NCBI RefSeq assembly: GCF_029961185.1
Contig: NZ_JASBQQ010000010.1
Coordinates: 62,001 to 126,000 of the forward strand
DNA length: 64,000 nucleotides
Origin: Albidovulum aestuarii
GTDB taxonomy: Bacteria > Pseudomonadota > Alphaproteobacteria > Rhodobacterales > Rhodobacteraceae
Direction of reading: 5' to 3'
Made by a program: the position numbers and the translations under genes. The notes under the pieces were generated by a model. It was not told where the DNA came from and searched no databases. It worked only from the letters and a program-made list of their open reading frames with translations. How positions within the stretch are numbered: position 1 is the stretch's first letter; each line of letters begins with the position of its first letter. This document shows, piece by piece, positions 29,006 through 55,561 of this stretch.

Positions 29006-29082
29006 GGCGAGGTAGCTCAGCTGGTTAGAGCACACGACTCATAATCGTGGGGTCGGGAGTTCAAGTCTCCCCCTCGCCACCA
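29006..29082 (+). tRNA. tRNA-Met (anticodon CAT), elongator type
   Basis: A 77-base tRNA with a 7-bp acceptor stem (GGCGAGG 29006-29012 with CCTCGCC 29072-29078), discriminator A and encoded CCA (29080-29082). The D arm is GCTCAGCTGGTTAGAGC, the anticodon stem CACGA/TCGTG holds loop CTCATAA, with CAT at 29040-29042, and the T arm contains GTTCAAGTC. Absence of the three G-C pairs typical of initiators and a paired acceptor end make it elongator Met; tRNA-Ile with lysidine (CAT) is the alternative but is less alike. Confidence 0.93.
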
Positions 29083-52496: not shown

Positions 52497-53123
52497 ATGA
52501 CACGCAAGCTTCTTCCTGGCATCATTGCCATGGCCGCAATCGTCGTGGCCGCCAATATCCTCGTTCAATATGTGATCGACGGCTGGTTCCTCACATGGGG
52601 CGCCTTCACCTATCCCTTCACCTTCCTCGTCACCGATATCACCAACCGCATCCACGGTCCCGCCGCAGCGCGCCGCGTGGTCTATGCCGGTTTCGTCGTC
52701 GGTGTGATCTGTTCGCTGATCGGCACGCAGATCATTGGCGAGTTCGGCCCGCTCGTAACCCTGCGCATCGCAATCGGCTCTGGCCTGGCCTTCCTTGTCG
52801 CCCAGCTTCTGGATGTCGCGATATTCGACCGGATGCGCCGGGGCGCCTGGTGGCGCGCGCCGCTGGTCTCCACCCTGGTCGGGTCGGCCGTCGACACCGC
52901 GATCTTCTTCACCATCGCCTTTGCCGCCTCGCTCACCTTCCTTGAACCGGCCAATGACGTTGCTTGGGCAGGTGAGATGATCCCGCTCCTGGGCGTGGGT
53001 GCAGTGGTGCCGCTTTGGGTGTCGCTGGCCACGGCAGACTGGATTGTGAAATTATCGCTTGCCTTGGTCGCGCTTGTCCCGTTTCGGGCAATTGTTACAA
53101 GATTGACGGCAAACGTTGCGTAA
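52497..53123 (+). CDS. yhhQ: Queuosine precursor transporter
   Basis: A 208-residue VUT-family membrane protein (YhhQ/QueT-like) with about six membrane segments, importing preQ0/preQ1 for tRNA queuosine synthesis. Recognised by NILVQYVIDGWFLTWGAFTYP, FTFLVTDITNRIHG and the cytoplasmic FDRMRRGAWWRAPLVST region. The ATG at 52497 lies six bases after CGGA of the candidate riboswitch; an in-frame ATG at 52455 sits inside that leader and is unlikely. The riboswitch and transporter support each other's identity. Confidence 0.92.
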   Translation: MTRKLLPGIIAMAAIVVAANILVQYVIDGWFLTWGAFTYPFTFLVTDITNRIHGPAAARRVVYAGFVVGVICSLIGTQIIGEFGPLVTLRIAIGSGLAFLVAQLLDVAIFDRMRRGAWWRAPLVSTLVGSAVDTAIFFTIAFAASLTFLEPANDVAWAGEMIPLLGVGAVVPLWVSLATADWIVKLSLALVALVPFRAIVTRLTANVA

Positions 53124-53156
53124 AAACAATTGACAGACACAAAATCTGTGGCAGCC

Positions 53157-53165
53157 TGTGGATAA
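53157..53165 (-). promoter_or_regulatory. Perfect-consensus DnaA box sequence
   Basis: TTATCCACA on the minus strand (TGTGGATAA on plus) matches the DnaA box consensus exactly, 14 bases upstream of the 16S-complementary segment. A single box can arise by chance in a window of this size, and no cluster or AT-rich unwinding region surrounds it. Confidence 0.3.
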
Positions 53166-53193
53166 CGGCAACGCAGAGAAAGGAGGTGATCCA

Positions 53194-53250
53194 GTGTCTA
53201 GAGTGATATTGGAGAGAGGTGTCGGGACAGTCAGGGGGGCCGTGGCCTGA
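53194..53250 (+). CDS. Possible 18-codon leader ORF
   Basis: GTG at 53194 sits seven bases after a perfect AGGAGG and opens an 18-codon frame reading MSRVILERGVGTVRGAVA. Codons are atypical for this genome (two AGA, one AGG, ATA, TTG, TCT, ACA), so the sequence is probably constrained by RNA structure or by regulation through rare codons rather than by protein function. It may still be translated as a leader peptide. Confidence 0.3.
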   Translation: MSRVILERGVGTVRGAVA

Positions 53251-53331
53251 GGGCAAACCCTAGGGTTTCAAACCCTGACTGGGCCTAGTCGATCTTCGAC
53301 ACCCTAACTGGCCCATCTCCGTAGATCTCGG

Positions 53332-53360
53332 AGGGCCGCTCCAACCCGGAGCGGCCCTTT
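53332..53360 (+). terminator. Terminator-like hairpin ending the structured RNA
   Basis: Perfect 11-bp stem AGGGCCGCTCC/GGAGCGGCCCT (53332-53342, 53348-53358) with loop AACCC, followed by TTTCCGTTT. Almost the same stem forms the cycM terminator at 62683-62706, supporting terminator function. Confidence 0.68.
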
Positions 53361-53403
53361 CCGTTTCACGCTATTGGAAAATTCGGTCCCGCGTGGGCCC
53401 GTC

Positions 53404-54205: not shown

Positions 54206-55561
54206 ATGACTGCTGAATCGCAACTCTCGCGGTTCGGACTCTTTGACGCGCGTGTACCGCGCTATACAAGTTATCCGACCGCCCCGCATTTCAATTCGTG
54301 CGTCGGCCCCGAAGATTTTCGGGACTGGATCGGTGCGATCCCGGAAGGGGCACGGATATCACTCTATCTGCACGTGCCCTTCTGCCGCCGTCTGTGCTGG
54401 TTCTGCGCCTGCCGGACACAGGGAACAACTTCCGATGACCCGGTCCGGGCCTATATCGAAGTCCTGAAGGCCGAATTGCAGTTGCTGAAAACGCGGCTTC
54501 CCGCCGGTGTCACCCTGTCCCGGCTGCATTGGGGTGGCGGCACACCAACCTTGATGCCTGCGCGCGTGATGGAGGATCTTGCCCGCGCCGTGTTCGACGT
54601 CGTGCCAATGGGCGACGGGGCGGAATTCTCGGTCGAGATCGACCCGAATGAGATCGACGACGACCGGCTCGATGCGTTGGCCTCGGCGGGGATGAACCGG
54701 GCCTCCATCGGGGTGCAGGATTTCGACCCGGCCATTCAGAAGATGATCGGCCGCGATCAGTCTTTCCAGATCACGAAGAAGGCCGCGGACATGATCCGGG
54801 ATCGGGGCGTCGCATCTCTCAACGCCGATATCCTCTTCGGCCTGCCGCGCCAGAACCGCGACAGGATCGCCGCGTCTGTGCAAAAGCTCTTGTCGCTCAA
54901 TCCCGACCGGGTCGCCCTCTATGGCTATGCCCATGTGCCCTGGATGGCGCGGCGGCAGGTGATGATCCCATCAGACACCCTGCCCCGGCCGGAAGAACGG
55001 CTGGAACTGTTTGAGACGGCGCGCAAGCTTTTTGTCGCTGATGGATATGACGAGATCGGGATCGACCATTTCGCGTTGCCGACCGACGGTCTGGCCTGTG
55101 CAGCGCGCGAAGGACGGTTACGGCGGAACTTCCAAGGCTATACCGATGACACGGCCGAGGTGCTGATCGGCGTTGGTGCGTCATCGATTTCCCGCTTTCC
55201 ACAGGGCTATGCACAGAATGCGCCTGCGACCTCGGCCTATACCAAGGCGGTAAGGGCGGGTGAATTCGCCACCGCAAAGGGCCATGGTTTCGCAGGGCAG
55301 GACCGGATGCGCGCACGGATGATCGAGGCGTTGATGTGCGATTTCCGCATCGACGCAAATGAGATCTGCCGAGACTTCAACATAAGTGCAGAGCAGCTTC
55401 GTACGCTCTTCGACACTGCGGCACGCGACTTTGGCGATATGGTGGAGATTGGGCCCGGCGCGTTCAGCATTCCGGAACGCGCGAGGCCACTGACCCGGAT
55501 GATCGCAAGGGCATTTGACGCCTATGATCTGTCAAAGGCGGGGCACAGCCCGGCGGTGTGA
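54206..55561 (+). CDS. hemN: Oxygen-independent coproporphyrinogen III oxidase
   Basis: A 451-residue radical-SAM enzyme (called hemZ in Rhodobacter) that converts coproporphyrinogen III to protoporphyrinogen IX without oxygen. The cluster motif is CRRLCWFCAC (Cys60, Cys64, Cys67 plus Cys69), the HemN form rather than HemW. YTSYPTAPHF at 20-29 and LHWGGGTPTLM are also diagnostic, as is FQGYTDD near 320. Divergent from fnrL across an FNR box, so it should be induced under low oxygen. The ATG coincides with the expected transcription start, so the mRNA may be leaderless. A stop is followed by the paired hairpins at 55566. Confidence 0.95.
   Translation: MTAESQLSRFGLFDARVPRYTSYPTAPHFNSCVGPEDFRDWIGAIPEGARISLYLHVPFCRRLCWFCACRTQGTTSDDPVRAYIEVLKAELQLLKTRLPAGVTLSRLHWGGGTPTLMPARVMEDLARAVFDVVPMGDGAEFSVEIDPNEIDDDRLDALASAGMNRASIGVQDFDPAIQKMIGRDQSFQITKKAADMIRDRGVASLNADILFGLPRQNRDRIAASVQKLLSLNPDRVALYGYAHVPWMARRQVMIPSDTLPRPEERLELFETARKLFVADGYDEIGIDHFALPTDGLACAAREGRLRRNFQGYTDDTAEVLIGVGASSISRFPQGYAQNAPATSAYTKAVRAGEFATAKGHGFAGQDRMRARMIEALMCDFRIDANEICRDFNISAEQLRTLFDTAARDFGDMVEIGPGAFSIPERARPLTRMIARAFDAYDLSKAGHSPAV

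Follow-up and report, generated by a model that had tools for sequence, protein, structure and literature searches.

Among the described RNAs that come closest to the one considered here are CC2171, a small RNA that is expressed in Caulobacter and is represented in Rfam as RF01867, and rnTrpL, which ends at an attenuator hairpin. RF01867 is among the revised structures in the available part of the Rfam 15 paper, and the accessible text of two further studies tabulates the sequencing coordinates of a Mesorhizobium homologue of CC2171, MH_s33 (PMC5596092), and describes two predicted Caulobacter ncRNAs as translated (PMC4117421). A search of the open-licence literature returned no account of a 16S complementarity, an ORF or a function of CC2171. 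The RNA analysed here was found in a window of 64,000 nucleotides (the whole stretch of DNA that was analysed) from Albidovulum aestuarii, contig NZ_JASBQQ010000010.1. According to the available parts of the respective papers, a short translated ORF within a small RNA, akin to that of the window RNA, occurs in rnTrpL/peTrpL (PMC10117765), a CUCC-type segment is likewise carried by the anti-Shine-Dalgarno sRNAs of the SmelA075/RS0680a family and by SisA-D (PMC3927594, PMC12559287), and long 16S complementarity in front of small ORFs is found in the extended Shine-Dalgarno initiation of Staphylococcus aureus (PMC13009471). Compared with the anti-Shine-Dalgarno sRNAs, however, the window RNA is dominated by the opposite polarity, a maximal Shine-Dalgarno sequence to which the anti-segment is paired: in all 46 aligned sequences from the window's family, the Rhodobacteraceae, the Shine-Dalgarno is the internal partner of the CUCC segment that precedes the terminator. 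Unlike the leader-peptide attenuators, rnTrpL/peTrpL among them, it has no conserved downstream operon, and its peptide lacks a run of one regulatory codon. In S. aureus, long complementarity is a species-level feature of initiation, as far as the accessible text goes (PMC13009471), whereas the window genome has one exact site with an intramolecular cover. The available portions of the sRNA literature on Caulobacter (PMC4117421, PMC5988900, PMC12559287), Rhizobiales (PMC3927594, PMC5082802, PMC4842269), Paracoccus (PMC5107571) and R. sphaeroides (PMC6238624, PMC3320616) contain no description of the window RNA.

The maximal Shine-Dalgarno sequence, located by pattern match at 53179-53194 on the forward strand and conserved in relatives, is an exact complement, AAAGGAGGTGATCCAG, to the last 16 bases of 16S rRNA without a single mismatch, and the match ends on the G of a GTG start codon (53194). 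A pattern search of the source assembly found no 16S 3' end, and the reference tail was therefore taken from G353, a genome of the same family. The 16S 3'-end pattern GGAACCTGCGGCTGGATCACCTCCTTTCT was present in one of five relatives tried, G353, which has two copies, and a shorter 16S 3'-end pattern was not found in the remaining four. The 16S rRNA of G353 ends with CTGGATCACCTCCTTT, which is the end of a full-length SSU rRNA match, and the window element is its exact complement. A chance match is ruled out by the counts, as the window contains three matches to AAAGGAGGTGATCCAG at up to three mismatches versus 0.31 expected from shuffles, of which that at 53179-53194 alone is exact, and it is the single exact copy in the 4.24-Mb assembly. 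A stray fragment of a 16S gene is likewise ruled out because the site is followed by a start codon at the loci inspected, where 16S rRNA has CCG. The original prediction had claimed a complement to the 16S tail beyond chance and had made its case depend on the segment being kept in relatives, and both were borne out: the pattern AAAGGAGGTGNTYCNRTG occurs in 147 of 198 family genomes, in single copy in all except one, while the reversed-pattern control occurs in 0 of 198; in its strict form the pattern is absent from the other 51 genomes. The one exception, G465, has two matches (G465:C46:2223-2240 and G465:C131:1952-1969), the second of which (GTTCCTGTG) differs. Across the class, 50 of 289 genomes carry the pattern and one carries the reversed control; the window's own genome is counted here as well as among the 147 of the family.

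A permissive Rfam scan aligned the whole RF01867 model (1-159) to the window RNA at 38.1 bits, with E-values of 1.1e-6 and 6.2e-7 and, genome-wide, of 2.7e-6. This score lies below the curated gathering cut-off of 75 bits; the idea that the RNA is covered by the curated cut-off was rejected, as a scan of the window at the gathering threshold gave no match here. A tRNA gene at 29006-29079 is the window's sole Rfam match at that threshold. The cut-off was exceeded by one of ten loci tried, L056, which lies outside the family. RF01867 matches were obtained in 61 of 289 class genomes, nine of them above the cut-off, and a separate search with the DNA sequence gave matches in 34 of 61 genomes (the window's own genome being counted in both cases). 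The window RNA and CC2171 share the 5' module GAAAGGAGGUGAUCCAGUGUCU, which is identical in the Rfam alignment, a terminator-like 3' hairpin, with 53333-53357 aligning to the last helix of the model, and an architecture in which the early RNA pairs with the stretch before the terminator. They differ in that CC2171 has a long-range CAUUGUC/GACAAUG helix at a place where the window RNA has non-standard pairs; in the window's family this helix is replaced by H1, in which the Shine-Dalgarno is paired, by H3 and by a hairpin over the start codon. Judged by this alignment, the window RNA is a diverged relative of RF01867/CC2171, and the original description of it as an undescribed RNA is not supported.

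A 22-base pattern of the ribosome site identified at least 120 loci in named genomes. Their titles include Bradyrhizobium, Methylobacterium, Bosea, Brevundimonas, Phenylobacterium, Acetobacteraceae and Rhodobacteraceae, and we take nearly all titled genera to be Alphaproteobacteria. The RNA is also present in L159 and L218, relatives of Rhodobacter/Cereibacter laboratory strains. Among these at least 120 loci, three are titled only "Proteobacteria" (L133, L139, L211) and one "uncultured bacterium" (L228), and two belong to metagenome bins titled as other groups, L229 (Ramlibacter) and L202 (Acidobacteriaceae). The RNA of L229 resembles the CC2171 type, and its contig may be mis-binned. In L202, the same 22-base ribosome site precedes a 104-codon frame, and the site is thus not quite exclusive to the RNA. 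By eye, the L202 frame resembles an ordinary conjugation protein, presumably of the VirB3 type. The first 80 of the at least 120 loci were used in the tests described below and 40 others were translated only; of these 40, 37 carry ORFs between 14 and 25 codons long, contig ends truncate two, and one is L202 with its 104 codons. Six loci (L029, L033, L039, L050, L057, L061) have no serine codon after the start, and some of these, for example L050, may be chance matches.

The ribosome site opens into an ORF of 18 codons with a GTG start and a TGA stop (53194-53250, forward strand). Of 57 family loci, 54 begin with GTG and three with ATG; the stop is TGA in 28, TAA in 17 and TAG in 12, with codon 19 being the stop in 49. 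The ORF comprises 18-57 codons at 39 class loci outside the family and 14-33 codons at the first 80 of the at least 120 named loci. At all 39 class loci frame 0 stays open over 18 codons or more, compared with 16 and 28 of 39 for frames +1 and +2; of those 80 loci, 64 lie outside the family, and there both alternative frames are often open as well, reaching 14 codons or more in 43 and 56, so that an open frame is a weak argument outside the family. Codons AGA, AGG and ATA of the window ORF are rare, as had been predicted, with 1.2, 3.4 and 3.3 occurrences per 1000 codons in 41 long ORFs of the window. Codon 3 is AGA in 45 of 49 family loci but in none of the 39 class and 64 other named loci, where AGA or AGG occur anywhere in the ORF in 12 and 7, respectively. 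Entropies at codon positions 1, 2 and 3 are 0.63, 0.69 and 0.72 (49 family loci), a test that is weak because the RNA structure overlaps the ORF and confounds it. Within the family the entropies give few hints of selection on the peptide, while start, stop and length are kept. This agrees with the earlier proposal that the RNA rather than the peptide seems constrained; the presence of an ORF is constrained as well. In Bradyrhizobium and kin the ORF has 14 codons and is near-constant (VS..KRCHLAGIAR; L137, L142, L145, L146, L154, L162, L163, L170, L182, L183, L217, L219, L226, L236), and Microvirga (L179) has VSHCHCRRLAVVAR and Rhodopseudomonas (L223) VSHSKRCHLAEAAR. In this group the peptide itself may matter.

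The region 53150-53375 is predicted to fold at -100.9 kcal/mol (z -3.3 versus shuffles), and the predicted fold of 53160-53362 amounts to -92.9 kcal/mol. Alignment A1 comprises 46 of 54 family loci, eight being left out at 90% similarity or above, and excludes the divergent loci L029, L105 and L110. In A1, 94.5% of the pair cells hold standard pairs compared with at most 50.9% for slid partners, 19 of 39 pairs show changes on both sides, and 0 of 500 shuffles reach any of five measures, although kinship alone can exceed such shuffles. A structured RNA with kept, covarying stems, as originally claimed, is thereby corroborated within the family. In helix H1, the Shine-Dalgarno core GGAGGUG (53182-53188) pairs with an internal anti-Shine-Dalgarno, CAUCUCC (53314-53320), in 46 of 46 sequences; the 3'-strand variants CGCCUCC and CACCUCC retain pairing via G-U, the two variable pairs being 28 G-U plus 18 G-C and 33 U-A plus 13 U-G. 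Helix H2 is a hairpin over the start codon, UCCAGUGUC/GAUAUUGGA (53190-53213), with 97.1% of cells paired in the 46 sequences. Neither H1 nor H2 has a pair with changes on both sides, and their support is therefore one-sided. H3 joins GUCGG within the ORF (53221-53225) to CUGGC (53308-53312), with 94.3% of cells paired and four of five pairs doubly changed; its 5' stretch has another partner in the window's own predicted fold. H4 joins UCAGGG in the late ORF (53231-53236) to CCCUGA (53273-53278), with 84.4% of cells paired and six of six pairs doubly changed in the same alignment. All strands lie on the forward strand. The predicted pairing probability of the Shine-Dalgarno core is near 1 in the window and averages 0.5 or more in 45 of 46 family members. 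Just 5' of the internal anti-Shine-Dalgarno, CCUAACYGGCC (53303-53313) is conserved in A1 beyond the bases that the fold explains. By this comparison, members of the window's family share a fold in which the 3' portion of the RNA shields the ribosome site, and a hairpin the start codon.

The stems are followed, as predicted, by a terminator-like hairpin, GGGCCGCUCC/GGAGCGGCCC, with a short T tail (53333-53362, forward strand), in which 95.0% of the cells are paired and eight of ten pairs are doubly changed; a simple terminator scan called neither the hairpin at 53333-53357, whose T tail is short, nor anything else. The sequence of the hairpin region recurs at G026:C10:258846-258881, G026:C23:89-117, G030:C3:817958-817986 and G012:C17:317136-317171, and since it recurs elsewhere in these genomes the region may be a shared or mobile terminator module. 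Upstream, TTGACA at 53130-53135 (forward strand) is a putative -35 box, which would place the RNA start near 53160. In 44 of 57 family loci a TTGAC is found no more than 75 nt upstream of the ribosome site, at 48-50 nt in 42 of them, and 13 loci have none. A consensus promoter scan passed over the box at 53130-53135 and flagged a different promoter-like site at 53103-53130.

Elsewhere in the class, base pairing joins the early ORF (codons 2-9) to the segment preceding the terminator, with CAUUGUC and GACAAUG as one instance. Across 33 loci, the cognate duplexes average -18.66 kcal/mol versus -12.17 kcal/mol (sd 0.61) for species-swapped ones, and 0 of 2000 permutations were as good (z -10.7; z -9.6 for the 24 loci outside the CATTGTC group), whereas two other segments in the same permutation test gave no cognate preference (z +1.8 and +0.7). 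This first set represents 33 of 42 loci, those removed being four without a called terminator, three redundant ones, and two whose terminators were mis-called (L045 and L060). For 42 named loci taken from the at least 120 as a second set, z was -7.1 for the early-ORF duplex and -0.4 for a control segment; without the CATTG group nine loci are left, with 71 of 2000 permutations equal or better (z -1.9). Since cognate duplexes beat swapped ones, most clearly in the first set, the pairing is kept as its letters change. For 74 non-redundant class loci (from 92), the best internal partner of the Shine-Dalgarno is stronger than in shuffled RNA (mean z -1.53, with 47 of the 74 below -1), and in a number of these loci it is CCUGGAUCNUCGCCUCCG or near it, within the ORF. 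A motif resembling the 16S tail occurs in 22 of the 74 loci versus 0.08 expected, as counted by a regular expression that was written after the data had been seen. It is read in the Trp frame in 20 of the 22 and in each other frame once, so that selection on the peptide is possible at this motif. Equilibrium folds of these 74 loci, all outside the family, give the core a main partner no farther than +20 in 51, which disfavours a dominant role of the 16S-like segment, and a farther main partner with a probability of at least 0.5 in 20. Going by these folds, the 16S-like segment might act during transcription alone, or have no role. The cover by H1 and H2 in the window's family would be a similar effect reached via different partners than in the rest of the class.

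The explanation that we favour, with a confidence that falls somewhat short of an even chance, is a self-repressed mini-mRNA which is opened by capture of a 30S subunit and in which translation matters rather than the peptide. Without a ribosome, the internal anti-Shine-Dalgarno segment would hold the ribosome site shut. A 30S subunit would open it by pairing of the 16S tail, which is the stronger partner; this order is allowed by predicted duplex energies of -28.1 kcal/mol for the 16S pairing versus -17.1 kcal/mol for the best internal 3' partner, values for isolated duplexes that leave out the cost of unfolding. A translating ribosome would then melt the helices that involve the ORF and expose the 3' segment until translation stops, and what regulates would be whether the RNA is translated or not, by way of its stability or of the exposed 3' segment. 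We infer that translation is needed for function, that ribosomes and self-pairing compete for the site, and that the result would be a switch.

Some of the same observations would suit other explanations. Conservation of 53303-53320 beyond the bases explained by H1 and H3 in A1, and the existence of further alphaproteobacterial sRNAs with anti-Shine-Dalgarno motifs in the accessible text of PMC3927594 and PMC12559287, would agree with a trans-acting sRNA in which CCUAACYGGCCCRYCUCC serves as the seed for repressing mRNAs and is masked by the ribosome site until a ribosome binds. However, the motif C[AG][TC]CTCC precedes the terminator in 15 of 16 Rhodobacteraceae-like loci but in only one of 64 other named loci (from the at least 120), so that an anti-Shine-Dalgarno seed is not a class-wide function, and we consider this explanation unlikely. 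Still less probable is a 30S decoy or hibernation RNA, whose long duplex with the 16S tail would stall or store 30S subunits: the complement does span the 16S 3' end up to the start codon, with at least 14 bases kept in the loci inspected, but a decoy needs neither start, stop nor open frame, all of which are kept, it requires high abundance, and the family fold hides the very site that a decoy would present, which together place it lowest among the explanations weighed here. A conventional small mRNA encoding a functional peptide, or a peptide that senses arginine or rare codons, would account for the kept frame, start and stop, for the AGA codons conserved in the family, for a T-W-I-x-A-S motif that recurs in the peptides of other families and for the near-constant Bradyrhizobium peptides. 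Yet third codon positions are barely more variable than first and second ones, the C-terminal residues vary freely within the family, the peptides of other families look unrelated, and AGA at codon 3 is confined to the family as compared with the class and other named loci, which leaves a peptide-centred role quite improbable.

The genomic context bears on the remaining explanation, a leader or attenuator in which translation of the ORF would choose between termination and read-through into arfB, a gene for ribosome rescue. The upstream neighbour is a gene for a queuosine-precursor transporter of the Vut_1/YhhQ type, which is present in 51 of 57 family loci. In 39 of the 57, arfB lies downstream on the same strand, at most 500 nt away, and a link between ribosome state and a rescue factor is attractive. 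In the window, however, arfB does not follow the RNA and the downstream neighbour is fnrL, which is convergent on the opposite strand. (Beside fnrL, 54260-55561 encodes a radical SAM protein (Pfam Radical_SAM), which we take to be a HemN-type enzyme.) The extracted flanks of 39 class loci outside the family gave no match to arfB or yhhQ beside the RNA, and the neighbouring frames at these loci vary in kind and strand, as seen by eye from translations. On these grounds an arfB attenuator was rejected as a general role and is hardly to be expected as an explanation of the RNA; the suggestion that the RNA might be a leader for the next gene does not fit for the same reasons. Since neighbours differ across the class loci, the comparison favours a stand-alone gene of about 200 nt and speaks against control of a single downstream gene as a role shared by the whole class.

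Returning to the self-repressed mini-mRNA, a broader version of it, which we regard as rather doubtful, would be that of an ancient alphaproteobacterial RNA that combines the best complement to the 16S tail with a partner of its own that imitates this tail. The 30S subunit and the imitation would compete, and the RNA would act as a gauge of free ribosomes whose states have different effects on the cell. According to the sequence comparisons, the relatives of CC2171 across the class are RNAs that keep an ORF behind a maximal ribosome site, and this site is self-covered at least in the window's family. They may thus offer a small and easily altered candidate for how bacteria sense free ribosomes, for example in Caulobacter or Rhodobacter.
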